Positions 41,334-64,000 of a stretch of DNA of 64,000 nucleotides are shown piece after piece. The position numbers were made by a program, and so were the translations under genes. The notes under the pieces were generated by a model. That model saw only the letters and a program-made list of their open reading frames with translations, had not been told where the DNA came from and made no database searches. Numbering within the stretch: position 1 is the first letter of the stretch; each line of letters begins with the position of its first letter. Origin of the DNA: Bacillota bacterium (lineage in GTDB: Bacteria > Bacillota > Clostridia > Lachnospirales > CAG-274); the NCBI GenBank assembly GCA_017460805.1, contig JAFUAF010000013.1, positions 62,001 through 126,000 of the forward strand, given 5' to 3'.

Positions 41334-41795
41334 ATGCTTGAAGAACAGGGGCGCGGACTACTAAAACACGGCGCATCAAAGTTTTTCGGCTGGATGTTTT
41401 CTGTTCTGAAAAAATCTTATACACATTTAAGGGACAAGTCAAATCATAACAAAGAGGAATCGGGCAAGAAAAGCGTTAAAGACCTTGTTCGCAAGGGGCG
41501 CGACTTGGAATTGACCGAATATATACAGGAAAAAAACAAGCTGAAAGATATATGCAAGCAGCTTAATAAGCAAGGTATAGCCTTTGCGGTAAAAAAGGAC
41601 AAAGACGGAGTTTATCAGGTCTTATATCAGCGCAAGGATGCAACATTGGTAAATGAAGCCATAGAAAAATCCTATATGAAGGAGTTGAAGCCAAAAAGGT
41701 CGCTGAAAGAAGTCCTTAACCGTAATAAACAGCTTGTTTCCAATCACAAGGACATTTCCGAACCTCTCAAACACAGGGAGGTAAATGCGCGATGA
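41334..41795 (+). CDS. PcfB-family (DUF3801) conjugation protein
   Basis: 153 residues. Basic N-terminal helix region, then KDLVRKGRDLELTEYIQEKNKLKDICKQLNKQGIAFAVKKDKDGVYQVLYQRKDATLV, a fold typical of DUF3801/PcfB, which occurs immediately before VirD4-type coupling proteins in Tn1549-like and pCF10-like systems. It is thought to assist relaxosome processing. AGGAGG precedes the ATG. It overlaps virD4 by 4 bases. Confidence 0.82.
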   Translation: MLEEQGRGLLKHGASKFFGWMFSVLKKSYTHLRDKSNHNKEESGKKSVKDLVRKGRDLELTEYIQEKNKLKDICKQLNKQGIAFAVKKDKDGVYQVLYQRKDATLVNEAIEKSYMKELKPKRSLKEVLNRNKQLVSNHKDISEPLKHREVNAR

Positions 41796-43633
41796 AAACA
41801 AAAATTGCTTTTATGCTGATTTGCGGTGTGCTTGTCTTTGCTATCGGCAATAACTGCGCTTATAACTATATGCACTCACAAGCAACCGATATAGGCGGCA
41901 AGTTGGAAGCAGTGTCTGCGGGGCTTGAACGCATAGACAAAGAATTTTACATATTTGATTTAAAATCACTCGGAGCAGGCAGTTTATGCCTGTTTTTTTA
42001 TTCCCTCGGCTGCATATATGCTATCTTTTGCAAAAGGAATACAATGCCCGGCAGGGAACACGGTTCAGCCGAATGGGGAACGGCGGGTGATATAGCCAAA
42101 TATAAGGATAAGAAATTTGATAACAACATGCTTCTTACCGCTACCGAATGGATGAGCCTGAACACAAGGCAGACGATGCGTAATAACAATATTCTTGTTA
42201 TAGGCGGTTCGGGTTCGGGTAAAACGCGATTTTTCCTTAAACCTAATTTGCTGCAAATGCACTGTTCCTATGTTATAACAGACCCTAAAGGCACTGTTTT
42301 GAACGAGGTCGGCAAGGTGCTGGCTGATGCGGGCTATAAAATCAAAGTGTTCAATACTGTGGATTTCAGTAAAAGTATGCACTACAATCCGTTTTCTTTT
42401 ATAAAGACGGAAGCGGATATAAAGGTTTTTGTGGATATATTGATAACTTCCACAAAAGAAAAAGGCGAAAAAAGCTCAGACCCGTTTTGGGAAAATGCCG
42501 AGCGACTTCTGTATATGGCTCTTATAGGCTATATAATCTACGAACTTCCCGAAGAGGAACATAACTTTGCTTCACTCTTGGGGCTTATAAACGCCATGGA
42601 AGTCCGCGAGGATGACGAGAGTTTTATGAACGCCGTTGATTATGCCTTTGAGGAGATCGAGTTGGGTACAAGAGCATTTTGCGAAAAGCGAAAGCTGCCT
42701 TTTGACGAGAAAAAGGCAATAGAACCAAATCCCGAACACTTTGCTCTGCTGCAATACAAAAAATATAAGATGTCCGCCGCAAAAACGGCAAAATCCATTC
42801 TTATAAGCTGCGGAGTGCGTCTTTCAGCTTTTGACATAAAGGAAGTAAGGGATATGACCATGTATGACGAAATGGAGTTGAGTACGTTGGGGGACGAAAA
42901 AACTATCCTATTTATCGTCATAGATGACAAAGTAAGCACTTTTAACTTCCTTGCTAACTTTATGTACAGCCAATTATTCAAAGAACTGTGTGATAAAGCA
43001 GATAACCACTACGGCGGCAGGTTGCCCGTACATGTGCGCTGTATGCTTGATGAGTTTGCAAATATCGGACAGATACCGAACTTCGAGAAGATCATCTCTA
43101 TTATACGCTCAAGGGAAATTTCTGTCAATGTTATTGTGCAAAATATGGCGCAAATTGAGGCTTTATATGACAAACAAGCAGGTACATTGGCCGGAAACTG
43201 CGATACAACTCTTTTCTTGGGAAGTGGTGAAAATCAGACCATGAAAACCATATCGGAACGTGTCGGAAAAGCTACTATCGACCATAGAAGCAGCAGTACA
43301 ACAAAGGGACAGCAAGGCTCTTTTTCGCTTCAAAATCAGATTTTGGGGCGCGAGCTTATAACTCCCGATGAGGTCGGAAGGCTCGATAACAATGAGTGCT
43401 TACTGTTTATAAGGGGTCTGAGACCCTTTAAATCAAAAAAATATGATTTGACCAAACATCCACATTACCGAAAAACGGGGGATTACAACAAAGATAACCT
43501 GTTTGACATTGTAAAATACAATGCCGAACATAAAAACGAAAGGTCGGCTGCGGAGGATATAGATATAGAAAAATATATGCTTGATGACAATGACCTTGAA
43601 ATATTGGAAAACAATTTACAACAAGTGGGATAA
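41792..43633 (+). CDS. VirD4-like type IV coupling protein
   Basis: 613 residues. Two N-terminal membrane helices (residues about 5-25 and 55-80) anchor the ATPase. Walker A VIGGSGSGKTRFF lies near residue 140, the YVITDPKGTVLNEV segment follows, and Walker B is RCMLDEFANIGQIPNFE near 415; NMAQIEALYDKQAGTLAGNCDTTLFLGSGE is the conserved sensor region. It delivers the relaxase-DNA complex to the transfer channel. It is the second gene of the transfer operon, behind PcfB. Confidence 0.95.
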   Translation: MKTKIAFMLICGVLVFAIGNNCAYNYMHSQATDIGGKLEAVSAGLERIDKEFYIFDLKSLGAGSLCLFFYSLGCIYAIFCKRNTMPGREHGSAEWGTAGDIAKYKDKKFDNNMLLTATEWMSLNTRQTMRNNNILVIGGSGSGKTRFFLKPNLLQMHCSYVITDPKGTVLNEVGKVLADAGYKIKVFNTVDFSKSMHYNPFSFIKTEADIKVFVDILITSTKEKGEKSSDPFWENAERLLYMALIGYIIYELPEEEHNFASLLGLINAMEVREDDESFMNAVDYAFEEIELGTRAFCEKRKLPFDEKKAIEPNPEHFALLQYKKYKMSAAKTAKSILISCGVRLSAFDIKEVRDMTMYDEMELSTLGDEKTILFIVIDDKVSTFNFLANFMYSQLFKELCDKADNHYGGRLPVHVRCMLDEFANIGQIPNFEKIISIIRSREISVNVIVQNMAQIEALYDKQAGTLAGNCDTTLFLGSGENQTMKTISERVGKATIDHRSSSTTKGQQGSFSLQNQILGRELITPDEVGRLDNNECLLFIRGLRPFKSKKYDLTKHPHYRKTGDYNKDNLFDIVKYNAEHKNERSAAEDIDIEKYMLDDNDLEILENNLQQVG

Positions 43634-45241: not shown

Positions 45242-45820
45242 ATGTCGATAGAAGTACGAGTGCCCGAAGAGATAAAGGACTACAAAGAAAGCATTATAGC
45301 GGGATTGTCGATACGACAGCTTGCTTGCGGGGCAGTTGCTTTTAGCTGCGGAGTGCCTACGTTTCTTATTTTAAGAAATATAAATATGGATCTTGCCACT
45401 TACGCAACAATGGCTGCGGTAGTACCTGCGTTTTGTATCGGGTTTATCAAGAAAGGCGGATATACCTTTGAAAAATATTTGAAAATCAAGTTAAAAGCTG
45501 TTTTGGGAGTAAACAAAAGGAAGTATCAAACAATAGGCACTTCCCCTCCCATCGAGGTTGAGGAATACAGAGCCTATTATCAGGAGCTAGCCGCAGAGCA
45601 AACTAAACAGGAGGAACAGCAGAAAGGGGGACATAAGATTGTTCGTACCAAAGGAGAACGAAATACAAAGAAAGTACAAAGAAAAAAACAGAGAGAGTAT
45701 GAGATTGCTGAAATCTCAAAAAAAGGCTATAAAAGAGCGCGAAAAGCAGCGTATAAGGCAATTAAGAAGTCAACAGGCGTTGATAGAAAAGAAAAATTTA
45801 AAAAAGAAGAAAAAAGCTAA
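45242..45820 (+). CDS. PrgI-family (VirB3-like) membrane protein
   Basis: 192 residues. The opening MSIEVRVPEEIKDYKESIIAGLSIRQLACGA, two membrane helices (residues about 22-42 and 50-70) and the KYLKIKLKAVLGVNKRKYQT segment match PrgI, the VirB3-like partner of the VirB4 ATPase. The family proper ends near residue 130; the remaining 60 residues are Lys/Arg-rich and coincide with the start of virB4 in another frame. GAGGTGAGAG precedes the ATG. Confidence 0.85.
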   Translation: MSIEVRVPEEIKDYKESIIAGLSIRQLACGAVAFSCGVPTFLILRNINMDLATYATMAAVVPAFCIGFIKKGGYTFEKYLKIKLKAVLGVNKRKYQTIGTSPPIEVEEYRAYYQELAAEQTKQEEQQKGGHKIVRTKGERNTKKVQRKKQREYEIAEISKKGYKRARKAAYKAIKKSTGVDRKEKFKKEEKS

Positions 45821-48188
45821 GGCAGAAGCCGCGCCGAAAACCTGTCAGGATACTCTTCATTATAAGTATATGTTTGAAAACGGTATTTGTCAGGTGGGTG
45901 ATAACTTCTTTTCCAAAACACTGAAATTCAGTGATATAAACTATCAAGTTGCACAGCGTGATGAACAGATAGATATATTCTCGCGTTACTGTGAGATATT
46001 AAACTATTTCAGCCCCGAAATAAATGTACAGATAACCGTACACAACAGGCGCATTGATATAGAAGATTTTAAGCAGAAAATGTTGTTCCCGATGCGTAAT
46101 GACGGTAAAGACGATTTAAGGGTTGAGTACAACACGATGCTTGAAAACAAGGCTTTACAGGGACAAAATTCAATCGTGAGAGAAAAATATATCACTTTCG
46201 GCATTACGGCAGAAAGCTATGATGTAGCCTATCCCGCACTGCTTCGTATAGAAACGGACTTGACGGGACAGTTTAAGGGGCTTGGGTGTGATGTAATGGC
46301 AGTTTCGGGCGCAGAAAGGCTTGAATATATCAACAGTATTCTAAATCCTAATGAGCCTATGAAGTTTGACTATAAGGAAATGGTAGGCACAGGTCTTACA
46401 ACAAAAGACTTTATTGCGCCTTACTATTTCGATTTTAAGCCGAACAGCAAGCAGACCTATTTTGAATTCGGGGACTATTTCGGTCAAGTTTTGATGATAA
46501 GAAAGTTTCCTACGGACTTATCTGATAAGCTGCTTAATGCCCTTGCTGAGATACCTTGTAATTCTACCATAAATATACACACCAATTCTATGGATAATTC
46601 ATCTGCAATAGAAATGGTTAAAACAAAGCTGGCATTTATGGAGCAGGATAAGGCTACAAGGCAGCAAAAATTATTGCAGCAGGGAACAGACCCCGAAATG
46701 ATACCGCAACATTTAAAACGACACCTTACGGAAACAAATATGCTTATTTCCGATATGCAGGAAAGAAATCAGCGATTATTTCAGGGTGCAATTATAGTCT
46801 TTACTTCGGCAAAAACACTTACCGAACTTGAAGAAAATGTTGAAAAGCTGAAAGGCAAGGCGCGAAGTTTCGGCTGCGAATTATCTCCTATCGCTTGTGA
46901 GCAGGAAGCAGGTTTAAACGCAACACTTCCGCTTGCAAAGAACGATATAGGCATAAGGCGCACACTCACAACGGCGGCACAGGCTATTTTTATTCCTTTC
47001 ACAACACAGGAACTTGCCGATGATGGCGGTATGTACTACGGCTTAAACGCTTTATCAAGAAATTTGATTTTCTTCAATAGAAAAGCGTTAAAAAATCCTG
47101 CGGGTTTTGTGTTGGGTTCACCCGGTTCGGGTAAATCTTTCGCAACAAAAAGGTGCTTGGTAGATGTAATGCTAAACTCGGAAGATGATGAAATTCTCGT
47201 TATCGACCCCGAAGCAGAGTATTTGACGCTCTTTGAAAACTTTGGCGGTGAGATAGTCAAAATTTCAAACGACACCGATACCTACTTTAATCCGCTTGAC
47301 ATCAGTGCGGAGTATTCGGGCGGCGATGATGACGAGGAAAACAGCAAAAATCCTCTGTCATTCAAAACCGAGTTTTTATTCAGCTTTTTAGATGTTATCG
47401 TTACCAAAGAAAGCGGTATAGGTCTTTCGGGTGCAGAACGTACCCTTGTTGACAGGGTGCTTACTTCTTTATATAAGGCTTATTTTAAGAAGAAAAACGC
47501 GCCTATGCCGACACTTACCGATTTTTACAAGGAACTTGAACAAGTGAAAATTCCTGAATTGCAGCAGGAGAAAGAAAATCTGTTAAAGGTTCTCGGCTTA
47601 TATACTTCGGGCAGTTTTAACCTTTTCGCACATCAAACCAATGTAAATGTAAACAACAGATTTGTTGTTTATGACATCAGGGATTTGGGCGAACAGCTTA
47701 AAACGCTTGGTATGCTTGTCATTTTGGATCAGATTTGGAACAGAGTTGTTTCTAACAGACTGATAGGCAGAACAACGTGGATAGTCATAGACGAAGCCCA
47801 TTTATTGTTCGCAAATCAGTTTTCGGCGCAGTTTTTGGTAAGCCTATGGAAGCGCGCGAGAAAATACGGTGCGATCTGTTCGGGTATAAGTCAGAACATA
47901 GGCGATTTATTGGACAGCCCGCTTGCAGGAAAGATTCTCGCCAACAGCGAGTATATCTTAATGCTTAATCAATCCCCGCAGGACAGAGTAAGGCTTTCGG
48001 AACTGCTGAATATATCGCCTACGCAGATGTCATTCGTTACAAATGCCACAGCAGGTCAGGGGCTTTTGCTTGCGGGCAATGCCATTGTACCGTTTGTTGA
48101 TAGTTTCCCGAAAGATACAAAGCTGTACAGCCTTATGACAACAAAATTGTCGGAGGTAATGGAATATGAGCAGCATAATAAAGAATAA
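45639..48188 (+). CDS. VirB4-like conjugation ATPase (TraE type)
   Basis: 849 residues. After a basic N-terminus, the VirB4 N-domain (about 65-430) and RecA-like ATPase follow: Walker A FVLGSPGSGKSFATKR near residue 490, ILVIDPEAEYLTLFENFGGE, Walker B TTWIVIDEAHLLFANQFS near 715, and SGISQNIGDLL. It powers pilus assembly and substrate transfer. The TTG at 45639 has a GGGGG site 9 bases upstream, inside prgI; an ATG at 45699 (MRLLKSQK) is an alternative. Either start overlaps prgI out of frame. It overlaps the next gene by 23 bases. Confidence 0.95.
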   Translation: MFVPKENEIQRKYKEKNRESMRLLKSQKKAIKEREKQRIRQLRSQQALIEKKNLKKKKKAKAEAAPKTCQDTLHYKYMFENGICQVGDNFFSKTLKFSDINYQVAQRDEQIDIFSRYCEILNYFSPEINVQITVHNRRIDIEDFKQKMLFPMRNDGKDDLRVEYNTMLENKALQGQNSIVREKYITFGITAESYDVAYPALLRIETDLTGQFKGLGCDVMAVSGAERLEYINSILNPNEPMKFDYKEMVGTGLTTKDFIAPYYFDFKPNSKQTYFEFGDYFGQVLMIRKFPTDLSDKLLNALAEIPCNSTINIHTNSMDNSSAIEMVKTKLAFMEQDKATRQQKLLQQGTDPEMIPQHLKRHLTETNMLISDMQERNQRLFQGAIIVFTSAKTLTELEENVEKLKGKARSFGCELSPIACEQEAGLNATLPLAKNDIGIRRTLTTAAQAIFIPFTTQELADDGGMYYGLNALSRNLIFFNRKALKNPAGFVLGSPGSGKSFATKRCLVDVMLNSEDDEILVIDPEAEYLTLFENFGGEIVKISNDTDTYFNPLDISAEYSGGDDDEENSKNPLSFKTEFLFSFLDVIVTKESGIGLSGAERTLVDRVLTSLYKAYFKKKNAPMPTLTDFYKELEQVKIPELQQEKENLLKVLGLYTSGSFNLFAHQTNVNVNNRFVVYDIRDLGEQLKTLGMLVILDQIWNRVVSNRLIGRTTWIVIDEAHLLFANQFSAQFLVSLWKRARKYGAICSGISQNIGDLLDSPLAGKILANSEYILMLNQSPQDRVRLSELLNISPTQMSFVTNATAGQGLLLAGNAIVPFVDSFPKDTKLYSLMTTKLSEVMEYEQHNKE

Positions 48189-51177
48189 CGATAACTCAAA
48201 AGCGGTAAATAAGCGGCGCGAGGATATAAACAGCGAACAGGTGGAAAACAGCCAAAGCAAGGCAGTCAAGGGCAAGAAAGATATTATCAAACAAGCCGAA
48301 GAAAAGGCTACCTACCGAGATTATTCGGGCAAGATACACTATGGAAGTTTTAGTGATAATAAATCTGTACAATCTTCCGAACCTGCAAAAAGCAGACAGT
48401 TTGAAAAGGTCAAAAAGGCTAAACAAGCCGAAAAGCGAAAGGAGCTTATCAGACCCGAAACAACAGCGGATATTGTTATGCCTGAAAATTCCGCCGATAT
48501 TGTTAAGCCCGCGGACAGCGTGGATATTGTAAAACCTCAATACTCCGCACCTGCGTATATTCCCGATAAACCTGTTGATATTGACAGCCCTGCATACAAA
48601 AAGGCATTAAAAAAACAGCTTAAACAGTATGCTGCGCGAAAAAACAGCGATAACAAGCCAAAATCACAGCTTGATGTTTCCGATATGCCGCAGGGTATTA
48701 TAAAAACGGAAACGCAAGCACCTGTTATAGAACATAGAGCGGGCATTGATGATGTTATATCAACCTCACAGGACTATGCACTATCGGCAACGGCAAGGGA
48801 TATGGTTGACGGAACTGTTACATATACAGACGGTACACAGCGTTCAAAGTTGTCTAAAATGGCGCATCAGCGGCAGTTGGAAGCAATGAAAAATCTGTAC
48901 AAAGATGACAGCAAGCCAGACACCGATAATGCCGCCTTTGAATACCGTGAAGATGAACAGCAACATTCCGAAATGCTTGTTAAAAACTCTATACCTATTA
49001 TAGAGCATAAAGAAGCGGTTGTCAAATCTTCTGCTCTACCAATAAAAAAGCAGGTTAAAGCAGAAAAGAACAAAACACAGCGTACAACAGTTGCTGCACT
49101 GGGCGCGGGCGTGATCAAAAGCAGTGTTCATTCCACACTTAAAAACAGCGATGATGAAACTTTACAGATAGCAGAGGGAACGGTAGCAGCTGCGGAAACA
49201 GCAAAGGGGATTTTAAAGCCCGAAACCGTATCCGTCAAAAAGCGTAATCGAAAAATAAGCCGCGAAAAGGCTGCGGAAGCTGCGGCGGCACTTGGCATAA
49301 AGCACGAACTGAAACAGGATATGAAAAATATTATCCTTGAAAAAGGAGACCAATCGGGCGAACTGCTGAAAGTCGGCGGTAAATCCGTTATCAAGGCTAT
49401 AAGGGAGGATATAGCCGAAAAAGGTAACGAGGATTTAGCCTTTAAAGCCGTTGATGATGTCATAAAGACAGGTGAAACGGCAGTTGCGGCAAAAGATGTT
49501 ATCGTTGCAGGACGAAACGGTATAGGTGATATTGTAAACACAGGAAAATCTACTGTTAAGGCTATAAGAAATGCACCGCAAAATGTTAAGTCTGCGGTGC
49601 AAAAGGTTCAGGACACCAAAAGGCGTTATGATGCTTTTAAGCGGTTACAGACAAAGCAAAAAATGGCTCTTATAAAAAGCAAGGCTGCAAACAAGGCCAA
49701 GAAAGTCGCAGATGAAGCCATCAAGTCTGTTCGGTCTGCTGCAATTAAGGTCTTGGCACTTTTACTTGTCAATGTTGTGCTGATAGTTGCCATCTGCGGG
49801 CTTGTGGTCGGTGCGATAGGCTCTTTCATCTGGCAGACACCGTCCGCACTCGATACAACAGCGGACATTAAATACATTTCCGAAAAGGATTGTGCCATGC
49901 AGAGCAAGTGGATGGGTAAAGGCTACACAAATGTTGCGTTGGAAAATAAAAACGACAATTCAAGCGATAGGTCTTATTCATGCATTTATGCACTTGCAGT
50001 GGATGTGACGGATGAGCCTGTTGTAAACACGGGCGAAAACTCGAAAGGTGAAACCTTAATGCCTACATACAGCGGATTTAATAAAATCTTTTATTCTTCC
50101 GATGAAATGCTTGAAGAATATCGCTGGACAACAGACGATTACCGCGCGGCACTTGCTTATATCCAGACAAAAAAAGAAAACTTAGGATGGTTCTCAACAT
50201 TTTTCGGTTTTGTAGGTGAATCACAGCTTAAAACTGCGGCGAGCGATCTGCACAAGGCAACATATAACTACGGTATTTTGCACAGGGACAAAGATGCAGA
50301 TGGAAATATAACAGAGAGTTACGAAAGCCCGATATATTCTGTATCTTACGCAAAAGATGGGGCGCACGATTATTTTTATTTTGGCAAAAAATATTCGGTC
50401 AAATATCTGATAGATAACGATATTGTACGCTTTGACAGTGATGATGACAAAAACAAAAGCATGAAAGAAAGGTTTGAATACACCTATAAATACGGCAATT
50501 TCGCTGTAGCAAACATGACTTTCCCCTTGGAGTTGGAAGATGATGAAACGATAGAAAGCCGAATATCAAAACATTTCGGGAAACAGGTAGTATTGACCTA
50601 CAAACCGCCTACACCAAATGAAAACAAAACAGTATATGGGACGGTGAGTAAAAGTACCAAATGGCATTTGGCAACAGACTTGTCGGCTGATGATGGTGAT
50701 ATAATCTATGCTCCGATTTCGGGACTATGTAAAGCTACTCAGCGTGACGGGCGCGGGTTTGAGTATGTCATATCAACAGCCTACAACGGCAGTAATTTTG
50801 ATTTCACCAAAGACGGGTATCTGATAAAAATATCCTGTTCATCGGGTTCGTTTATTGCGGCGAATACACCGACAGTTGTGCATCAAGGGGATGCACTCGG
50901 CAAAGTGGCGCATAATATTGCGGTAAATACAATAGTACCCGATAAGGATAACGACACCGATAACGAGGATATTTTGGCAGACAAGCTGTTTCCCTGCTGC
51001 ACAAGCACAGCCTACCACGAGATAGGCGGCGATGTATTTGATATTCCAGAAGCGGAACAAGACCATATACACATTGAGATGTACAAGCTGCCGTGTGATT
51101 TCAGCAGTGCGGCGGATATGGAAAAGAATATACTTGCGGCAGAGCTGTTTTTCGACTACTCGGATGAGGAAGAATGA
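48166..51177 (+). CDS. Large transfer protein with a C-terminal M23 (LytM) peptidase domain
   Basis: 1003 residues. The first 530 are soluble, basic and repetitive (two TADIVMPENSADIVKPADSVDIVKP-like repeats around 95-125, then long Ala/Lys helices). One membrane helix lies near 530-560 (VLALLLVNVVLIVAICGLVVGAIG). The outer part ends in a LytM-like domain: HLATDLSADDGDIIYAP near 833 with the first His and Asp ligands, YLIKISC, VVHQGDALGKV, and DHIHIEMYKL near 967 with the second H-x-H. It would open the wall during mating, the role played by NlpC/P60 or lysozyme-like proteins in related elements. It overlaps virB4. Confidence 0.85.
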   Translation: MSSIIKNNDNSKAVNKRREDINSEQVENSQSKAVKGKKDIIKQAEEKATYRDYSGKIHYGSFSDNKSVQSSEPAKSRQFEKVKKAKQAEKRKELIRPETTADIVMPENSADIVKPADSVDIVKPQYSAPAYIPDKPVDIDSPAYKKALKKQLKQYAARKNSDNKPKSQLDVSDMPQGIIKTETQAPVIEHRAGIDDVISTSQDYALSATARDMVDGTVTYTDGTQRSKLSKMAHQRQLEAMKNLYKDDSKPDTDNAAFEYREDEQQHSEMLVKNSIPIIEHKEAVVKSSALPIKKQVKAEKNKTQRTTVAALGAGVIKSSVHSTLKNSDDETLQIAEGTVAAAETAKGILKPETVSVKKRNRKISREKAAEAAAALGIKHELKQDMKNIILEKGDQSGELLKVGGKSVIKAIREDIAEKGNEDLAFKAVDDVIKTGETAVAAKDVIVAGRNGIGDIVNTGKSTVKAIRNAPQNVKSAVQKVQDTKRRYDAFKRLQTKQKMALIKSKAANKAKKVADEAIKSVRSAAIKVLALLLVNVVLIVAICGLVVGAIGSFIWQTPSALDTTADIKYISEKDCAMQSKWMGKGYTNVALENKNDNSSDRSYSCIYALAVDVTDEPVVNTGENSKGETLMPTYSGFNKIFYSSDEMLEEYRWTTDDYRAALAYIQTKKENLGWFSTFFGFVGESQLKTAASDLHKATYNYGILHRDKDADGNITESYESPIYSVSYAKDGAHDYFYFGKKYSVKYLIDNDIVRFDSDDDKNKSMKERFEYTYKYGNFAVANMTFPLELEDDETIESRISKHFGKQVVLTYKPPTPNENKTVYGTVSKSTKWHLATDLSADDGDIIYAPISGLCKATQRDGRGFEYVISTAYNGSNFDFTKDGYLIKISCSSGSFIAANTPTVVHQGDALGKVAHNIAVNTIVPDKDNDTDNEDILADKLFPCCTSTAYHEIGGDVFDIPEAEQDHIHIEMYKLPCDFSSAADMEKNILAAELFFDYSDEEE

Positions 51178-52207: not shown

Positions 52208-53023
52208 ATGGATAAAGAAAAAATCGCTATCGAAAGATTAAAAACTGCGGCGGAAATGTCGGAAAGCTGCTATAACAAGCCCCTTATGCTTACATATAGT
52301 GGCGGCAAGGATTCGGAAGTGATGACCGAACTTGCGTTAAGAAGCGGGATCAATTTTGAATTATCTCACCATCATACAACAGTTGATGCACCGCAGACAG
52401 TATATCATATCAGAAAGGTTTTTAAGGAACTTGAAGCAAAAGGGATAAAGTGTACTATAGACTATCCCGAAAAAACAATGTGGGAACTTATTGTACACAA
52501 ATGTATTCCTCCGACCCGTAAAATCAGGTGGTGCTGTGCTGCCCTGAAAGAATCGAAGGGTAATCATCGTATGGTGGCAACAGGTGTTCGTTGGGATGAA
52601 AGTGTCAAGCGCAAGAAAACGCGCGGCATATATGAAGATATGCACAGCAACAAAGAAAAGAAAATCGTTTTAATGAATGATAACGATGATAGGCGCAAGT
52701 TGTTTGAGCGTTGTCAGATTCAGGCTAAAACGATAGTAAATCCCCTTATTGACTTTACAAATGATGAAATATGGGACTTTTATAATAATGAGTGTAAATA
52801 CAGGAATCCATTATACGATATGGGTTTCAAGCGTGTTGGATGTATCGGCTGCCCGATGGCAAGCAAAACGCGTCTTATGGAATTTGAACTCTTTCCCCAA
52901 TATAAAGAAATGTACATCCGCGCATTTGACAGAATGCTTGAACACCGCAAGGAAAAAGGTCTTGAAACAAGGCTTGAATGGAAAACGGGACAGGATGTGT
53001 TCGATTGGTGGGTAAACGGATAA
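52208..53023 (+). CDS. PAPS-reductase-family (adenine nucleotide alpha-hydrolase) protein
   Basis: 271 residues. The PP-loop TYSGGKDSEVMTELA (about 30-44) binds an adenine nucleotide. RWCCAALKESKG (about 102-113) and RVGCIGCPMASK (about 208-219) hold four cysteines that probably bind an iron-sulfur cluster. TGVRWDESVKRKKTRG and NDEIWDFYNNECKYRNPLYDMGFKRVGC are typical of the mobile-element clade close to DndC and IbrA rather than of assimilatory CysH. It may modify DNA or another substrate with sulfur; no dnd partners are visible. It begins its own unit after the terminator. Confidence 0.85.
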   Translation: MDKEKIAIERLKTAAEMSESCYNKPLMLTYSGGKDSEVMTELALRSGINFELSHHHTTVDAPQTVYHIRKVFKELEAKGIKCTIDYPEKTMWELIVHKCIPPTRKIRWCCAALKESKGNHRMVATGVRWDESVKRKKTRGIYEDMHSNKEKKIVLMNDNDDRRKLFERCQIQAKTIVNPLIDFTNDEIWDFYNNECKYRNPLYDMGFKRVGCIGCPMASKTRLMEFELFPQYKEMYIRAFDRMLEHRKEKGLETRLEWKTGQDVFDWWVNG

Positions 53024-53041: not shown

Positions 53042-54781
53042 ATGACTCAACATAAGTTAGTAATTGCAGAAAAACCGTCTGTTGCGCAGACAATAGCAAA
53101 AGCTATCGGTGCAAGCAACAGAAATGACGGTTATATAGAGGGCAACGGTTATATCGTATCTTGGTGTGTGGGACATCTTGTATCGGCAGCGCCGCCCGAA
53201 AGCTACGATGAAAAATATAAGAAATGGGATAACCTGCCCATTGTTCCTACGGTATGGAAATACGAGGTCTTACCCGCAACCAAAAAGCAGTTTGGTATTC
53301 TTAAAAAGCTGATGAACAGCAGCAAGGTCGATACCGTAATATGCGCTACGGATGCAGGACGCGAGGGCGAATTGATATTCAGACATGTATATAACGAAGC
53401 GGGCTGTAAGAAGCCGATAGAACGCCTTTGGGTCTCATCACTTGAAGATGAAGCCATAAAAAAGGGCTTCGGCAATTTAAAATCGGGTATGGAATACAAT
53501 AACCTTTATCAATCGGCTTTATGCAGGGAACGCGCCGATTGGCTCGTGGGAATCAACGCGACAAGGCATTTTACAGTGAAAAATGGAAACAACAGTGTCA
53601 TCAGCATAGGTCGCGTACAGACTCCTACTCTTGCACTTATCGTTGAACGCGACAGCGAGATAAAGAATTTCAAGAAAGGCTATTATTATACAGTTGAGAT
53701 AAACTGCGGGCTTTTCAAGGCTGTCAGCCGCAAGTTTGATGTCAAGGACTTGGCGGAAGCAGTAAAAAACAACTGTAAAACAGCTAAAGTCAAGGAAATA
53801 CGCAAGGAAACGAAGGCAGTTGTTTCGCCTAAACTCTATGATCTTACATCATTACAGCGCGATGCGAACCGTATGTTCGGTTTTACTGCACAGCAGACAC
53901 TTGATATTCTGCAAAAGCTGTATGAAACAAAACTTGTTACCTACCCGCGCACAGACAGCAGATATTTAACGGAAGATATGGGAAATACCGCGCTTTCTGT
54001 TATAAATGCCATAACTGCGGCAACGGATTTTGAAATATCGGGCGAACCGAATGTAAAGCGCATTATGAATAATGCGTGCGTAAGCGATCACCATGCCATT
54101 ATACCTACCGTAAACATAAAAACAGCGGATTTATCGGCACTTGATGAAAATTCAAACAAACTCCTGCACCTTATAGGTGCAAGGCTATTGGCGGCAACAG
54201 CACCAAAGCACGAATATGAGGTAACAACGGTAACTTTATCTGCAACAGGCTGTGATTTTACCGCAACGGGCAAGGTCATAAAAAACGGAGGTTTTAAAGA
54301 TGTTGAAATGCAGCTTTTAACAATTACCAAAAGCAAGCCCGCTGATAACGAGGAAAAAGAAACAGTATTGCCGCATATCTCGGAAGATATGGAATATCCC
54401 ATAGTCCCTGCCGTTATCGAACACGAAACAACACCGCCAAAACATTATTCCGAAGATACGCTGCTTTCTGCTATGGAAAATGCGGGCAGCAGTGATTTTG
54501 TAGAAAACTGCTATGAACGTAAGGGGCTCGGCACACCTGCAACAAGAGCAAGTATCATTGAAACGCTGATAAAGCGCGGATATGTTGAACGTAAGGGAAA
54601 ACAGCTTATTTCAACGGATAAGGGTGCAAAAGTTATTTTTTCCGTACCCGAAATCCTGCGCTCCGCAAAAATGACAGCGGAATGGGAAAATGAACTTTCG
54701 CAGATAGCAAAAGGCAAGGCGGACAGTAAGGCATTTATGCACCATATCGAAAACTTTGTAAGAACAATTTTGACGGTATAA
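53042..54781 (+). CDS. topB: DNA topoisomerase III
   Basis: 579 residues, type IA topoisomerase. The TOPRIM domain (LVIAEKPSVAQTIAKAIGA, ATDAGREGELIFRHVY) is followed by the DNA-gate region and the active site TYPRTDSRYL (catalytic Tyr near residue 301). GLGTPATRASIIETLIKRGYVERKGK closes the core. The zinc-ribbon tail of chromosomal TopB is missing, as usual in conjugative-element TopB. It probably resolves DNA during transfer replication. GAAAGGTGG precedes the ATG. Confidence 0.96.
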   Translation: MTQHKLVIAEKPSVAQTIAKAIGASNRNDGYIEGNGYIVSWCVGHLVSAAPPESYDEKYKKWDNLPIVPTVWKYEVLPATKKQFGILKKLMNSSKVDTVICATDAGREGELIFRHVYNEAGCKKPIERLWVSSLEDEAIKKGFGNLKSGMEYNNLYQSALCRERADWLVGINATRHFTVKNGNNSVISIGRVQTPTLALIVERDSEIKNFKKGYYYTVEINCGLFKAVSRKFDVKDLAEAVKNNCKTAKVKEIRKETKAVVSPKLYDLTSLQRDANRMFGFTAQQTLDILQKLYETKLVTYPRTDSRYLTEDMGNTALSVINAITAATDFEISGEPNVKRIMNNACVSDHHAIIPTVNIKTADLSALDENSNKLLHLIGARLLAATAPKHEYEVTTVTLSATGCDFTATGKVIKNGGFKDVEMQLLTITKSKPADNEEKETVLPHISEDMEYPIVPAVIEHETTPPKHYSEDTLLSAMENAGSSDFVENCYERKGLGTPATRASIIETLIKRGYVERKGKQLISTDKGAKVIFSVPEILRSAKMTAEWENELSQIAKGKADSKAFMHHIENFVRTILTV

Positions 54782-57152: not shown

Positions 57153-57221
57153 TTGACTATATAATCGACATTGTAGTATAATAAAACATGGAAAAGCAAA
57201 AATTCCGGTGGGGATTTTTGC
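57153..57221 (+). promoter_or_regulatory. Promoter and leader hairpin of the giant polyvalent gene
   Basis: TTGACT (57153-57158), an 18-base spacer and TATAAT (57177-57182). In the leader, GCAAAAATTCC (57196-57206) pairs with GGATTTTTGC (57211-57221 including one G) over 11 positions with one G-U pair and a 4-base loop, ending only a few bases before GGAGG (57225-57229). The hairpin could control access to the ribosome site. Confidence 0.6.
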
Positions 57222-57235
57222 AATGGAGGAAACGA

Positions 57236-60200
57236 ATGGAAACTCAAAAAGAAAAAATCGCTCGTATAAGCAGCCTTTTAGAGAGCGAGACTTTGAAATT
57301 GACAAATTCAAAGGAATCATGGCTGAAATACTTGGAAATTGCCGCAAGATTATACAAGTACGATTTTAAGGACAGTATCATTATCGCGGCACACAAGCCG
57401 AATGCCAGTATGTGTGCAGACTTCAACCTGTGGAGCGATAAGCTGCACTATAAGATCAAGCAGGGAACAAAGGGTATACCGCTTTTAAGAGAAGTCAACG
57501 GCTATATGAAGCCCTACTATGTATATGATATTTCCGATACGGAAAGGCAGAAAAACTCAAAGATCGTAGGACTTTGGCGCATCAAGCCCGAACACAAACG
57601 CGCAGTGGAACAGCGTTTCAGCACCAACTTTGGCGCAGTAAATGATAACGCAAGCCTTGAAAGTCTTATAAATGAGCGTATTGATATGCTTCTTAATGAT
57701 AATATCGGCGCATACATTGATGAGGTAGAATATAACGCAAAAGGTTCACTGGTTGAAGAACTTGACCGCCAAAATCTTGCGATAAGATTCAGGTCTATCG
57801 TGGAGGAAAGCGTTAAAATAATGGTTTGCGAGCGTGCAGGTATCAATCGTGATATTGATGAAGAAGCCCTCAGATACATAGGTGATTTCAATACCGTTGA
57901 TGTAATTACACAGCTTGGAGCAGCAGTAAATGACACAGCAAGCACCGTACTCCGTGAGATAGAAAAGGAAGTACGCTACTGTGAAAAATATAAGAACAAT
58001 GAAAGGACAGGTGTTACAAATGAGAGAGACAGTAAAGAACGGAATGAGGATGTTTTACAGTACACAGGAACAGAAATGGCTGCCGCAGTATCTGGAAGAG
58101 AACGATCTGATGTACAAGCTGGATTTAAAGACAATGACTTATCTGCCGTTGGTGGAAACAGACCCGCAGGAGCCTTACACACTGACGATGTGGGGACAGC
58201 GCAGGCTGACATACCTCAAGGAGAACAAAAAGGGAACATATCAGAGGCTGATGATAAAGGGTCTTTGGGAACATCTCGTAGCAACGGACAAGGAAGCGAA
58301 CAGACTGGAAGATACGCTGATGCAGCAGATGTCGGAGCGCGAGGGGATAACGGAAGAACTGAAACAGCAGAATCAGATGAAATGGGTAGGACTTCGCAAC
58401 AACCTGAAACAGAGAGTACGCGAGATAGTATTGGAACAGGTGATATACGCATAAACGGAACCGATACGGCAGAGGATAAATCCCCTGCCGTTTCGTCATT
58501 TATACAGACTATCGAAATGGAAAAGTATTCCGAGCCCGATGAAAACGGCAGAGTCAAGCGTATCGGTATGGCTACACTGGGCGAGGTTTATGAGCAGCTT
58601 GAAGCACACCTCAAAGCTAACAATATGCTGCCCGATGAATATTTCGATAGAGATATGGACTTTGACCCGAATATGGAAGTCCCCGAATATGCACAGTTTG
58701 TTTGTCATCCATATTGGGGTTCAAGCGAGGGCATTTATCTTGATATAACAATGGAAACTGCCAATGGTGTTATAAATTTTGCGACAGGCAAGACCCTTGA
58801 AGATAATTACGCTGCTTTTAAACGTATGGGTGACATAGCGACGGAATGTAATATAATGCTTAACAGCAACGGCAGACGAATTGAGCGTGACGGTATTTCT
58901 ACTCCCGAATATATAAAAAATGTTATGGCTGAAAAAGCAAAACAGGCAGAACAAGCAGACAGCCTTACATTTACTTTTAGGAAAGACGGAGGTAAGCATT
59001 TTACCGAAAGCAAAATTTTAAGGGATTTCGTCACCGAAAACTTTACGGATAAGCCTGTTTCCTTTGCACTTGTAAATGCAGTTATCGGCTATCTTGACGA
59101 AAAGCAGCATATTGAGCGCGAAGATAAGAGCTTAAATGTAGGTTGGTATAATAAGACCGATATTTATCTTTCGGGTACAGTTGACGGGAAGGCTTTTGAA
59201 TACGAGGATAGGTTTGATATTGGTGATGGTATAGGCGGAAACGGCAGAAATATCATTGAACATATCAAAGCCATTGCCGAATCGGTTATCTCAAAATATA
59301 ATGTGGATGATCCGGATTATAAAGAAGCCCAGGACTATATCAATATTTTCCTACCATACTTTGAAAAATGTGCTGTAATGACAGCCGAGGAGCAAAAAAT
59401 ATTTGATGATTTTAAGGCTGCATATCCCATAAGAAGCGCGGATAAACACCTTGAAACGCAGGAAGAAACGCAAAATAATAAGGCTTTTGTTGAGACCTTA
59501 AAAAATGCCGATGATAATATAGCCGATTATACGGAATATAAGATTTATCAACTTAAAAACGACCCCGAATTACACGGGTTGCGTTTTGAAGCGTACAAAA
59601 ATCTTGATGATACCTCCGACCCTGATATAAATAACTATGACCTTGTTTATGAAGGCAAGATAGTAAACCTGCCCGGCTTTAATGTTGAAGATAAGCTGAA
59701 TATGATATATGAGCAGTTTAACCTTGACCATCCCGATGATTTTACCGGACATTCGCTTTCTATGAGTGATGTTATAACATTTAACGACGGCACAAAGGAA
59801 ACAGCGCATTACGTTGACCGTTTTGGTTTTGCGGATGTTACTGAAATATTCATAGACCGAAATATTGAATTAAGTAATATAGTAGATCGCTTCTTTTCCG
59901 ATAAAGGCTCTGTAGTTGAAAGCAACAGCGGCGAATGGAAAATTGCTAATGGCGGGTACGACCTTGTTGCGGAAATATACCATAATAATATACCTGTCTG
60001 CGGAATCATAAATGCTGTCGGCGGGTACGAAGTCGATGATTATCAAAACAATCCCGATGTGGTGCAAACGATTATAAATGTACTGAAAAGCAAAAATATT
60101 GAGGTTATAGAAAATAATACCATTGATAATACACTTTCTGTAAACGAGGAACTGCCGAAGCCCGCACAGGCACAGGAAGAAAATAAGAATATAATCGGCA

Positions 60201-63200
60201 ATACACCTTACCGCTCTATTGTTGATAAGACATACAGAACGATGCCTAAAGAACGCGCAGAGCTTGTTGCCAAGCGTTTTGATAATGAACTTATAGATTA
60301 CAGCGGCAAAATAAATGATAACGGTTCTGTAACACTTACATTCAGCAAAGCTGACCTTGACGAGTGTAACAAGATAATAAATGATGTTGCCGCCCAGCAG
60401 GTGGTTGAAGAACACCGCGCCAAAACAAGAGAATTATACAAGCCTATCGGAAATGTTGACCTTGATAACCTTGAAGCTATTATGTTTGATGTTGTTCAGG
60501 GCTATATTGATGATAATAACCTTGATGTAAAGATCAATGACTTAACACTATACGGTTCGCGCAGCAGGGGCATTGAGAACGAAAACTCGGATATTGATAT
60601 AGTTATAGAGTATGACGGTACAATGCGCGAGGATGCACTTTTCAACATTTTCAACGGAGAAGATTATCATTTTGCGGGCATAAAAGTTGATTTTAACCCC
60701 ATACATGAAGAAGAAAGCGGCACACTTGAAGAATATCTGCCCCGCGTGAATAAATATTTGGATGAGCAGATAAAAGAAGCGGCAAAAAACGAAAAGTCCG
60801 TTGAAAAATCGAATAAGAGCGATATTATCGGCAATACCGTTTTTAAGTATATTCCCAAAAAGCACTATGAGAAATTCGATAAGGATTTAGGCATTGCAAT
60901 TTCGGAAGCCTTTAAGGAAAACGGCATAAAGCATAGCGGTAAGATCAACGGCGATACCGTAACGCTGACTATGAGCAAAAATGACCTTGATAAATGCAGC
61001 GAAATAATTGCACAGGTCAAAGCAACATTTGAAGCACCAACTGTTGAAGAACAAACTTTAGAACAGCCCTATATCATTTCGGAAACGGTAAAAGCCAATA
61101 TGCCCGATCCCGATATGTCAATAGAGGACAGGAACAACTTCGGTTACACCTATGAAGCAATGCTGCCCCTCACGGAAGAAGCCGCTGTTGATATATGGGA
61201 AAACAAAAATCTTCCTGTATATCTTCTCTATGATGATAACACGGAAAGTATGGCGGAGTCAATAGAAGATATTGAAAATCATAACGGGATATTTGGCATT
61301 GAAGCACCGGATTGGGAAAGATATATTACATCGCCCGAATATAGGCAAATGCAGACAGCCGCGGAAGTTGCGGCACAGCCCGTTACCGATGAAGAACATA
61401 TCAAGGGAATACCAAAAAGCATTGTCATAAAAGCACTTGTACATGGTTCGAACTTTGCCAATGGTAAATTCCGCTTGGAAGAACTGTATAAGTCAGAAAA
61501 AGATACAAAAACGCGCATTTCGGCTTTAAAGAAAGAATATGGTATAGGCGGTTACGGCGGGCCTGCCGAAAATATCGGAGATATTAAAGGCATGGATCAC
61601 GATGGAAAGGGCTTGTCAATCCGGTGGATAGGTGAAAGCGGCGAACTTAAAGGTCTTTTGAAATGGAATGATGTTGATAAGGTTTTAAAAGAGCTTATTG
61701 CAAATGACATTTATATCACCGGTGCTGAGCGCAAAAGATATGAGCGCGAGATGTTTGTAAAGGCACAGATAGACCTTATGAGTGAAGGTGATGTTATAAG
61801 TGTGAACGGCGAAAACTTCACCTTTGTTAAAAAGGATGATGGGTATAGGATTGAGGTTGTACCCGAAAATCCCGAATCCGATTTTTGCTATAACACCACT
61901 TTAGATAAAAACACCTATTACATAGACAACTTCCGCCTTGAAAGAAACGATTTTCAGATAAATGCCGCGGGCAAAGAAGAAAAAACGATTTCCGAACCCG
62001 CCCCACAGACAAAAGCCGATGATAAAATATATCGTTTCTATCACGGACGCGAGGTTGGCGAACTCAAAATGATGTTTCAGCCTAACCCACACGATTTTAC
62101 AACAGTATATTTCAATGCAGATACAGTAAGGCTTGCGGCGCGTATTGCAACCGAAAACGGGGAAACAGATAAAAACCTGTTCTTTAAAATGATAGAGAGT
62201 TACGGCAACCGTGACAGAGTAAGTGATGATACACTTTTCTATATGACAGCAAAAAACGAGTTTGACAATAACATAGCACTTATGGAAGGACTGTCCGAAG
62301 AAAATATGAGGACGGTCTTAAATTTTGCCCAAACGGGCAAGCTGGAACTTCCAAATGCTGTGCATGAAGCAAAAGAAGCTGTCGAGCCTATTATTGAAGA
62401 ACAGGCAGAAATGCAAGTTATCGAACAACCTACTGTTGAAAAGAAAGAAAAATCTGTTGATAAACCTAAAAAGTTTCCCAATACCATTGCACACAGGAAC
62501 TTTGTCAACCTCCAAAAACTCTATCCCGAAATATTCAGCGGTGAACATTCAGCCGAAAAATACAAAGGCATGGGTGGTATGGAAGATTTCTCAATAGAAT
62601 TAAACGGCAGCGAACTTACCCTGATGCACACTTTTGTACAAAACGGCGATCTGATGTATGACCCGCGTATTGATTATAAGATAGACTTTGATAATCAAAC
62701 CTTGCAGGCTATAAATTACGAAATGTCTTCTCTCGGTCTTTATCAGGAATATTCCGATAACAGCAAGGGACAACGAGATTGCAACAGCTTTACTGCCACT
62801 TGGATAAAAAATCTTGAAGACCAGAAAGATGACAGATATTTGGCTTGGGCAGTTGAGCAGTTTGAGTATAACGGCGAGGAATACGGTTTATCGGTATACT
62901 ATGACGAAAACGGCAAGATAACCGAAATGCGCGGTGATGATGAAACTATTGAAGCATACAAAGCGGCAAAAGGTATTGTTGAACAGGAACCCACATTTCC
63001 CGAAGATGAAAAGATAATACATTTTTACAGGTACGGCGATTTTTATGAAGCCTTTGGCGCGGATGCCTTAACAGCGGCAGAGATATTAGAACTTAATATT
63101 GTAAAGCGTAAAGGCGAAGATATGGTCGGTATTCCTGCGTTTGCACTTGACAAGTACAAGGAAAGGCTTGCGGAAAAAGGCTATAATGCCGATGTTACAG

Positions 63201-64000
63201 AAACTACACGCGAGAGGCATCTTGCCGCTCCCGAATATAAGGTCGATTTCAGTGAGTGGAAAGTCTCAACAAATCCCGTGGGCGATGAAATGATGTACTG
63301 TGTATATCGTGATATAGATAAAAACCACACCGATTATGCAGGTAACAGGCAAAATGCCATGACCTTTGTTTATGATAAGGAACTTTGCAGCCATATAGCC
63401 GAAATACTGAATAATGAGGGTATAACGGATATTGAAACTGCAACAAAAAGGGCAGCCGAATTAGCCGATACCGTAAGCAAGGTTGGTGGTAAATCTTTCG
63501 GAGAGGTATTTAAGGCATTGGAAGCCCACCAAATAATTTTTATCAAAGATGAGCCAAAAACACCGTCTTATATTAAGGATGCGCGCGATTTTGATATAAA
63601 AAATCAGCGTATAGTATGGGGTGATGACGGATTTCAGCTTCGCGGCGATACGAACAAGGGCAATGATATGTACCTTAATAAGCTCGGAACTTCCGTTAAA
63701 AACGTGATGTTCTACATAAGTGCAAGTAAATTGGAAATAGACCGTATCGAACCCGAAAAAATCAAGGCACACGATTTGAAAATCGGTGATGTTGTAAAGC
63801 TGCCGCCTGTTACTATGATCTCAACAAGGGGCGGCGAAAAAACATTCCCATCGGAATACGGTGTTGTTGAAAATATTGACGATAGGATGATACACTTTCA
63901 AACCTATAAAGATGCCGAACTCACAAACACCGTAGGAAAACATGCAGTAACATTTGACAGCCTTGACAGGGACAGTTTTGAATACATCGGAATAAAAAAC
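57236..64000 (+). CDS. Giant polyvalent conjugative-element protein (3' end outside the window)
   Basis: An open frame of 2255 codons runs to the window edge without a stop. Domains: ArdC-like N-terminus (about 10-110; WLKYLEIAARLYKYDFKDSIIIAAHKPNA), Gly/Asp/Gln-rich linker (about 250-415), a mixed domain (415-760), YodL-like domain (about 763-870; DYTEYKIYQLKNDPELHG, HYVDRFGFADV), nucleotidyltransferase domain (about 1100-1180; YGSRSRG and SDIDIVI), DUF3849-like (about 1282-1370), a KKEYGIGGYGG domain (about 1400-1500), several large polyvalent domains, and a MutS-domain-I-like stretch (about 1926-1984; HFYRYGDFYEAFGADALTAAEIL). Such proteins travel with DNA in phages and ICEs and carry anti-restriction and other functions. 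The start is the ATG with GGAGG; an in-frame ATG at 57188 sits at the predicted transcription start and is less likely. Confidence 0.88.
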   Translation, partial: METQKEKIARISSLLESETLKLTNSKESWLKYLEIAARLYKYDFKDSIIIAAHKPNASMCADFNLWSDKLHYKIKQGTKGIPLLREVNGYMKPYYVYDISDTERQKNSKIVGLWRIKPEHKRAVEQRFSTNFGAVNDNASLESLINERIDMLLNDNIGAYIDEVEYNAKGSLVEELDRQNLAIRFRSIVEESVKIMVCERAGINRDIDEEALRYIGDFNTVDVITQLGAAVNDTASTVLREIEKEVRYCEKYKNNERTGVTNERDSKERNEDVLQYTGTEMAAAVSGRERSDVQAGFKDNDLSAVGGNRPAGALHTDDVGTAQADIPQGEQKGNISEADDKGSLGTSRSNGQGSEQTGRYADAADVGARGDNGRTETAESDEMGRTSQQPETESTRDSIGTGDIRINGTDTAEDKSPAVSSFIQTIEMEKYSEPDENGRVKRIGMATLGEVYEQLEAHLKANNMLPDEYFDRDMDFDPNMEVPEYAQFVCHPYWGSSEGIYLDITMETANGVINFATGKTLEDNYAAFKRMGDIATECNIMLNSNGRRIERDGISTPEYIKNVMAEKAKQAEQADSLTFTFRKDGGKHFTESKILRDFVTENFTDKPVSFALVNAVIGYLDEKQHIEREDKSLNVGWYNKTDIYLSGTVDGKAFEYEDRFDIGDGIGGNGRNIIEHIKAIAESVISKYNVDDPDYKEAQDYINIFLPYFEKCAVMTAEEQKIFDDFKAAYPIRSADKHLETQEETQNNKAFVETLKNADDNIADYTEYKIYQLKNDPELHGLRFEAYKNLDDTSDPDINNYDLVYEGKIVNLPGFNVEDKLNMIYEQFNLDHPDDFTGHSLSMSDVITFNDGTKETAHYVDRFGFADVTEIFIDRNIELSNIVDRFFSDKGSVVESNSGEWKIANGGYDLVAEIYHNNIPVCGIINAVGGYEVDDYQNNPDVVQTIINVLKSKNIEVIENNTIDNTLSVNEELPKPAQAQEENKNIIGNTPYRSIVDKTYRTMPKERAELVAKRFDNELIDYSGKINDNGSVTLTFSKADLDECNKIINDVAAQQVVEEHRAKTRELYKPIGNVDLDNLEAIMFDVVQGYIDDNNLDVKINDLTLYGSRSRGIENENSDIDIVIEYDGTMREDALFNIFNGEDYHFAGIKVDFNPIHEEESGTLEEYLPRVNKYLDEQIKEAAKNEKSVEKSNKSDIIGNTVFKYIPKKHYEKFDKDLGIAISEAFKENGIKHSGKINGDTVTLTMSKNDLDKCSEIIAQVKATFEAPTVEEQTLEQPYIISETVKANMPDPDMSIEDRNNFGYTYEAMLPLTEEAAVDIWENKNLPVYLLYDDNTESMAESIEDIENHNGIFGIEAPDWERYITSPEYRQMQTAAEVAAQPVTDEEHIKGIPKSIVIKALVHGSNFANGKFRLEELYKSEKDTKTRISALKKEYGIGGYGGPAENIGDIKGMDHDGKGLSIRWIGESGELKGLLKWNDVDKVLKELIANDIYITGAERKRYEREMFVKAQIDLMSEGDVISVNGENFTFVKKDDGYRIEVVPENPESDFCYNTTLDKNTYYIDNFRLERNDFQINAAGKEEKTISEPAPQTKADDKIYRFYHGREVGELKMMFQPNPHDFTTVYFNADTVRLAARIATENGETDKNLFFKMIESYGNRDRVSDDTLFYMTAKNEFDNNIALMEGLSEENMRTVLNFAQTGKLELPNAVHEAKEAVEPIIEEQAEMQVIEQPTVEKKEKSVDKPKKFPNTIAHRNFVNLQKLYPEIFSGEHSAEKYKGMGGMEDFSIELNGSELTLMHTFVQNGDLMYDPRIDYKIDFDNQTLQAINYEMSSLGLYQEYSDNSKGQRDCNSFTATWIKNLEDQKDDRYLAWAVEQFEYNGEEYGLSVYYDENGKITEMRGDDETIEAYKAAKGIVEQEPTFPEDEKIIHFYRYGDFYEAFGADALTAAEILELNIVKRKGEDMVGIPAFALDKYKERLAEKGYNADVTETTRERHLAAPEYKVDFSEWKVSTNPVGDEMMYCVYRDIDKNHTDYAGNRQNAMTFVYDKELCSHIAEILNNEGITDIETATKRAAELADTVSKVGGKSFGEVFKALEAHQIIFIKDEPKTPSYIKDARDFDIKNQRIVWGDDGFQLRGDTNKGNDMYLNKLGTSVKNVMFYISASKLEIDRIEPEKIKAHDLKIGDVVKLPPVTMISTRGGEKTFPSEYGVVENIDDRMIHFQTYKDAELTNTVGKHAVTFDSLDRDSFEYIGIKN
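58020..58454 (+). CDS. tnpV: TnpV-family protein encoded in the +1 frame inside the giant gene
   Basis: 144 residues with AAAGGA 12 bases before the ATG. The protein has a clear TnpV layout: YTLTMWGQRRLTYLKENKKGTY in the first half, LMIKGLWEHLVATDKEANRLEDTLMQQM, then GITEELKQQNQMKWVGLRNNL and a closing REIVLEQVIY. It has normal hydrophobic content, as a folded protein should. The other frame over the same bases encodes only the low-complexity linker of the giant protein. So the gene is fully nested (codons about 262-406 of the host frame). TnpV proteins are common in clostridial transposons; their role is unclear. The frame is open from a GTG at 57981, but only the ATG at 58020 has a ribosome site. 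Confidence 0.75.
   Translation: MRETVKNGMRMFYSTQEQKWLPQYLEENDLMYKLDLKTMTYLPLVETDPQEPYTLTMWGQRRLTYLKENKKGTYQRLMIKGLWEHLVATDKEANRLEDTLMQQMSEREGITEELKQQNQMKWVGLRNNLKQRVREIVLEQVIYA

Follow-up and report, generated by a model that had tools for sequence, protein, structure and literature searches.

A complete tnpV gene nested out of frame in a giant polyvalent-protein gene, an arrangement recurring in mobile elements of several classes of Bacillota

The window, that is, the whole stretch of 64,000 nucleotides analysed here (contig JAFUAF010000013.1 of a Bacillota bacterium), carries genes of a conjugative element, among them a giant gene with a predicted anti-defence role that continues beyond the window end. 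The features on which this study bears are as follows:

41792..43633, + strand: VirD4-type coupling protein of the conjugative element
45639..48188, + strand: TraG P-loop (VirB4-type) ATPase of the conjugative element
53042..54781, + strand: DNA topoisomerase gene of the conjugative element
57236..64000, + strand: giant polyvalent-protein gene, starting at ATG 57236 or at 57188 and running past the window end (ORF with YodL, LPD25, Pol-beta/NTP_transf, DUF6908 and MutS_I matches)
57260..57967, + strand: predicted ArdC-fold head domain of the giant, residues 9-244 counted from ATG 57236
57963..58454, + strand: complete open TnpV frame after the preceding stop, with alternative GTG starts at 57981 and 58011
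58001..58495, + strand: linker of the giant, residues 256-420, predicted disordered (pLDDT <50), enclosing all of tnpV
58002..58007, + strand: Shine-Dalgarno-like AAAGGA, 12 nt 5' of ATG 58020
58020..58454, + strand: nested tnpV gene, 144 aa, ATG to TAA, in the +1 frame of the giant gene (PF14198 match; start, stop and Shine-Dalgarno motif read from the sequence)
59000..59269, + strand: LPD25 domain of the giant (E 3.8e-7)
59537..59839, + strand: YodL domain of the giant (E 2.6e-27)
60530..60727, + strand: Pol-beta-type nucleotidyltransferase domain of the giant (E 4.4e-6)
63005..63241, + strand: MutS_I domain of the giant (E 3.9e-13)

The giant ORF spans 2271 codons within the window, 2255 of them from ATG 57236, and has no stop up to the window end; an earlier sequence-only reading of this DNA had noted an uninterrupted gene of 2255 codons. 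Up to the contig end the frame remains open over 2601 codons (stop to end). Many enzymatic and DNA-binding domains are combined in one polypeptide, whose N-terminal head has a predicted ArdC-N-type fold, and a T4SS-like system lies beside it, the coupling protein, the TraG P-loop ATPase, a TrbL/VirB6 protein and the topoisomerase all being in the window. Three longer giant relatives that were scanned added matches to an Eco57I-type methylase and an SNF2 helicase, some of them below the Pfam cut-off. The ArdC-type head, YodL, the Pol-beta nucleotidyltransferase, MutS_I and the T4SS neighbourhood are all shared with the polyvalent proteins of conjugative elements as presented in the main text of PMC5512222. 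In that main text the words 'TnpV' and 'overlapping' are absent, and no nested gene was seen in its passages on polyvalent proteins. Two other genes of the transfer region were recorded: a PAPS-reductase-type gene (52208-53023) directly before the topoisomerase gene, and a gene at 48166-51177 for a 1003-residue protein giving no Pfam match at E 0.001. In G000:C25 (L007), too, a giant ORF encloses a tnpV; it was open across all 4201 codons examined, and over 4744 codons in the head search described below.

Within the giant ORF (57188 to 64000), positions 57981-58454 of the same strand form a second ORF of 157 residues from a GTG. ATG 58020 is the better start of this gene and leaves 144 residues. 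The sequence-only reading had proposed a TnpV of 144-157 residues preceded by a ribosome-binding site, and both elements are there: scanned from GTG 57981, the protein matches PF14198 with 100.4 bits (E 7.2e-29, cut-off 27), covering profile positions 8-111 of 111 above the gathering cut-off, and the AAAGGA motif stands 12 nt from the ATG, a longer spacing than the 8-9 nt of most relatives. From 58020 to 58454 the giant frame contains 0 stops and the third frame 20. An AlphaFold2 model of the window TnpV had a mean pLDDT of 92.7 and a pTM of 0.62, with beta strands followed by five helices; comparison of this predicted structure with the PDB returned no convincing match. The first 600 residues of the giant were modelled as well (mean pLDDT 66.7), and residues 256-420, which separate the head from the next folded part, were predicted to be disordered. 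Since tnpV corresponds to giant residues 262-407, the overlap coincides with this predicted tether. On the minus strand, two antisense ORFs (58125-58499, 124 codons; 58216-58557, 113 codons) also lie over the overlap and were taken as putative by-products of dual coding.

Relatives were then considered. The genome of the window itself holds five tnpV genes, four of which are nested in giant ORFs, all four in the same phase; the remaining copy sits at the edge of a contig, and its giant-equivalent frame is interrupted by 6 stops. In the whole sample, 239 TnpV matches in 229 loci were reduced to 203 genes by removing duplicates and domains shorter than 280 bases. A gene was called nested when an open ORF of at least 200 codons covered it in the giant phase. 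By this definition 114 of the 203 genes are nested, 8 lie directly upstream of a giant and 81 do neither. Duplicates included, TnpV matches were nested in 77 of 84 cases in genome contigs, 32 of 74 in whole genomes, 3 of 5 in plasmids and 2 of 6 in viral contigs, and the phase was identical in every nested case from all four sources. Most loci were obtained because they carry TnpV, and the query of the genome-contig search consisted of nested TnpVs only. The hosts of the 67 deduplicated nested loci from genome contigs are Clostridia in 63 cases and Erysipelotrichia in one, 3 being without a class. Hand-picked plasmid records with a nested tnpV, from Cohnella, Anaerococcus, Virgibacillus, Streptococcus suis and Aerococcus, stretch this range to Bacilli and Tissierellia. 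The arrangement recurs, at one place and in one phase, in more than 100 relatives from several classes of Bacillota. In five loci (L075, L105, L107, L111, L159) a giant with a nested tnpV is followed by a second, free-standing tnpV, which lies beyond the giant ORF or just overlaps its end.

The absence of stops from the giant frame in 114 of 114 nested genes is circular, because nesting was itself defined by an open frame in that phase. Two checks escape this definition, a recount made free of phase and a search for giants made without TnpV. In the recount, a covering ORF of at least 300 codons on the same strand was found for 113 of the 203 tnpV genes, always in the giant phase, and for 0 of 203 in the other phase; the remaining nested case (L153) has a covering ORF of 207 codons. 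Among the 114 nested genes, 76 have covering ORFs of at least 1000 codons. For 59 genes the ORF is cut by a contig or locus end, and among the 55 seen whole, 6 are below 1000 codons. All 119 TnpV matches, counted before deduplication, that have an ArdC-like head at most 700 nt upstream are free of stops in the giant frame over the TnpV domain; one of these is the decayed L044, whose giant ORF is short.

The second check used the ArdC-like head of the giant as a TnpV-independent query and yielded 59 genome loci (L230-L288), made from the best matches only. As 18 of the 21 sequences in the query alignment came from nested giants, the nested share among these loci is not an unbiased frequency. 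In 41 of these 59 loci the giant stays open through a nested +1 frame that is at least 100 codons long and matches the TnpV profile, and with the seven hand-picked plasmid loci the count becomes 47 of 66. Among the other 19, tnpV is upstream in 6 and none was found in 5; in 4 the giant frame is closed or the +1 ORF is shorter than 100 codons, 2 are cut by the contig, and 2 (L292 and L288) lack a profile match. L288, with a partial head and no match to the TnpV profile, is probably due to chance. For L292, from S. agalactiae, the nested frame gives no TnpV profile match of its own and is 41% identical to the nested frame of Anaerococcus; a profile built from this pair matches the TnpV profile with E 5e-10. 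Near-identical S. suis proteins are named TnpV by NCBI. The sequence-only reading had suggested looking at the +1 frame in the linkers of homologous giants: TnpV was present there, and its phase never varied among the cases seen.

Non-nested genes served for comparison. The giant-equivalent frame holds on average 8.0 stops in the 81 unassociated copies and 13.4 in the 8 upstream ones, and the third frame of nested genes averages 16.8. Only one of the 81 unassociated copies, L044, has no stop in the giant-equivalent frame, and it is a decayed nested copy. When the nested TnpVs were re-encoded with the codon usage of non-nested tnpVs, a stop-free giant frame arose in 5 of 11,400 draws; the figure was 914 of 11,400 when their own codons were permuted. 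Because such draws are rarely stop-free, chance is excluded as the source of the open giant frame. One in-frame stop in the giant frame was observed in L260, where the tnpV frame is intact; in L248/L044 both frames are broken and the copy is apparently decayed.

To see which frame selection acts on, divergence was calculated by codon position over 349 pairs, retained from 400 tried among 1151 candidates, pairs that share sequences and are not independent. At giant codon positions 1, 2 and 3 the values were.348,.243 and.572 in the head and.393,.254 and.204 in the overlap; in 348 of these 349 pairs the wobble moves to the third position of TnpV inside the overlap. Individual relatives were also compared with the window. 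Against L003, a close relative, TnpV codons differ by 32 synonymous and 9 other changes and giant codons by 2 and 37; 135 of 144 residues are identical in TnpV and 106 of 143 in the giant frame. The corresponding changes are 21 and 12 (TnpV) and 2 and 33 (giant) against L013, and 36 and 33 (TnpV) and 4 and 71 (giant) against L011. These substitution patterns, obtained along the lines of the comparison of rates by frame that the sequence-only reading had proposed, indicate that the TnpV frame is under purifying selection. Since homologues carry TnpV in the +1 frame of their linkers and this frame is the one that appears conserved, neither linkers closed in the +1 frame nor purifying selection confined to the giant frame, the two outcomes that would have refuted a nested gene, applies here.

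The giant reading also leaves a trace. At 50-60% TnpV identity, fourfold-site divergence is 0.48 in nested pairs, still high, versus 0.63 in unassociated ones, and giant-frame identity is 0.353 in nested pairs, slightly above the 0.294 of unassociated ones. In the 80-90% bin there is no difference in giant-frame identity between nested and unassociated pairs (0.704 for both). From the high fourfold divergence and this equality it follows that the amino acids of the giant frame are only loosely constrained. The wobble base of tnpV codons coincides with position 1 of the giant codons. It is G in 48% of cases in nested versus 28% in unassociated genes and T in 9% versus 24%; at wobble sites where no stop could arise, G still makes up 41% versus 28% and T 13% versus 26%. 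The codon bias of nested tnpVs follows the giant frame beyond stop avoidance. Both frames of this same-strand pair are open and shaped by selection, the giant one with loose constraint on its amino acids. The giant-frame reading of nested tnpVs is hydrophilic and rich in Gly, Glu, Asp and Arg (mean hydropathy -1.43). The linker of the giant is very probably a by-product of the nested tnpV; the conserved nested gene suggested by the sequence-only reading is supported, over a wider range than had been claimed.

One could suppose the reverse, namely that the +1 frame is a shadow of a linker selected in the giant frame alone and that PF14198 consists in part of such shadows. Beyond the shared DNA itself nothing was found in support of this, and it runs against the existence of 81 TnpVs away from giants, whose giant-equivalent frame is broken by 8.0 stops on average, against a substitution pattern that tracks the TnpV frame, and against the presence of a Shine-Dalgarno signal. 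We give it a negligible probability.

This signal was quantified at the best of the candidate starts. A Shine-Dalgarno match of at least 6 nt, mostly 8-9 nt from the ATG, precedes 85 of the 114 nested tnpVs; the other 29 have a match of just 4-5 nt. Counted per codon, matches of at least 6 nt occur at 98 of 394 in-frame ATGs versus about 0.6% of 1227 nearby out-of-frame ATGs. Free-standing tnpVs have such a match in 41 of 81 cases. These counts bear on the possibility that the TnpV frame is reached by ribosomal frameshifting from the giant, giving a fusion of the ArdC head with TnpV that ends at the tnpV stop, with no initiation of its own. The constant +1 phase fits such a mechanism, as does the fact that in many loci the TnpV frame is open upstream of the best start (median 19 codons, more than 50 in 9 of 114). 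Yet a Shine-Dalgarno motif with an ATG is frequent at nested tnpVs, the free-standing genes carry it too (41 of 81), and in 30 of the 114 the TnpV frame opens at most 10 codons before the start with the best motif, at most 5 in 12 of these, a short stretch that leaves little room for a frameshift. Frameshifting is therefore quite improbable. Separate initiation is the preferred reading: TnpV would be translated from its own internal Shine-Dalgarno motif and ATG, and translation in the giant frame would yield, from the same bases, a linker that is predicted to be disordered.

Taken together, a complete tnpV lies wholly inside the giant polyvalent-protein gene in its +1 frame, in a place and phase conserved across mobile elements of Bacillota, and we consider it very likely that it is translated separately from an internal ribosome-binding site, while the same bases would encode a predicted disordered linker in the giant frame.

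Nesting with a giant is common and not universal. In another lineage, comprising eight loci (L033, L034, L038, L039, L170-L172 and L180), tnpV directly precedes an ArdC-headed giant; in two of them (L034 and L038), genes that by eye resemble the Sel1 and small-protein genes of the window precede tnpV in turn. Together with the 5 head-found loci without tnpV, these upstream genes imply that nesting is not obligatory. TnpV is not confined to giants, since of the 203 genes 81 have none (among which L044 is a decayed nested copy) and 8 lie upstream of one. In the tree, nested tnpVs are strongly clustered without forming one clade: 10 changes were counted, at least 7 of them forced by the starred branches, versus a mean of 52.6 after shuffling. 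Several entries or exits have accordingly occurred.

The sequence-only reading had described tnpV as overprinted inside the giant gene. This polarity is probably reversed: because TnpV is better conserved and occurs alone, tnpV would probably be the older frame and the linker of the giant a later reading. In the history that we propose, an old and free-standing tnpV would first have been a neighbour of an ArdC-headed giant, whose frame would then have read through tnpV, enclosing it and joining the ArdC-like head to the rest of the giant.

A different relationship between the two products has to be weighed here. TnpV may be a translated passenger, functionally unlinked to the giant, with mobile tnpVs having entered a tolerant linker several times and both readings persisting by selection on TnpV itself and selection against truncation of the giant. 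The scatter of nested copies in the tree agrees with this, and so does the occurrence of tnpV alone, some free-standing copies adjoining HTH, serine recombinase or relaxase genes. What it accounts for less well is that place and phase are the same in very divergent giants and TnpVs, that tnpV is found just upstream of ArdC-headed giants as well, and that 41 of the 59 best head-found genome loci keep an intact nested frame with a TnpV profile match. We regard a mere passenger as possible, though doubtful. The repeated pairing with ArdC-headed giants suggests that TnpV may be a partner of the giant at the DNA of the element. TnpV could work with it on incoming or excising element DNA, which would be a reason for the two to stay together, and nesting would keep them made and inherited together.

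For bacteria, claims of long genes nested on the same strand seldom find acceptance. Among the closest known systems is comS inside srfA of Bacillus subtilis, comS being much shorter than tnpV and not known to belong to a widely spread protein family. Another nested gene of a mobile element is ardD inside tniA of Tn5053, which encodes a 147-residue protein with demonstrated anti-restriction activity (PMC3533173). Unlike tnpV, which is on the same strand as its host gene and recurs in many elements, ardD is described as antisense to tniA (PMC3533173). The TnpVs of the mobilizable transposons Tn4451 and Tn6104 belong to the same Pfam family, PF14198, and are borne by mobile elements as here (PMC3158075). 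There, tnpV is presented as an ordinary gene of the element (PMC3158075), whereas the window has it enclosed, out of frame, in a giant gene. Homology with lambda Xis led to the postulate that the tnpV of Tn4451 has a role in excision (PMC3158075).

Some existing annotations display one of the two frames. The RefSeq record NZ_OY725736.1 gives TnpV together with a giant whose start, although in the right frame, is set about 3 kb too far downstream; at a second place in this record, and in that of Cohnella, a TnpV entry stands without the giant. The S. suis, Virgibacillus and Anaerococcus records list the giant and leave TnpV unlisted, the plasmid gene tables being incomplete, so that a gene missing from them may still be present in the original record. 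The loci with TnpV in the gene table and a giant late-started or unlisted despite its open ORF are L077 (NZ_OY725736.1, 4175-10363), L291 and L289. For S. suis, cargo inserted in the snf2 gene is said to carry a 'TnpV transposase gene' (PMC9815147). As an S. suis giant (L293) can hold a nested tnpV, some of the genes so described in PMC9815147 may be the nested gene itself. Surveys relying on annotated genes can miss one of the pair.

Because TnpV is a protein family in its own right, the natural sample is large, the ribosome-binding signal is strong and free-standing copies serve as controls, dual coding becomes measurable here rather than a matter of argument. A broader interpretation, which we judge evenly balanced between right and wrong, is that of an ancient dual-coded module of Bacillota conjugative elements, whose linker would have been born by reading through a pre-existing tnpV and in which a small dedicated partner would be locked to a giant anti-defence protein in one message, one place and one phase, from Lachnospiraceae to streptococci and bacilli. 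If this is true, few long same-strand nested gene pairs known in bacteria would be as widely conserved, and the pair would have been missed because annotation shows only one frame of the two. The TnpV family gains a candidate partner in the ArdC-headed giant.
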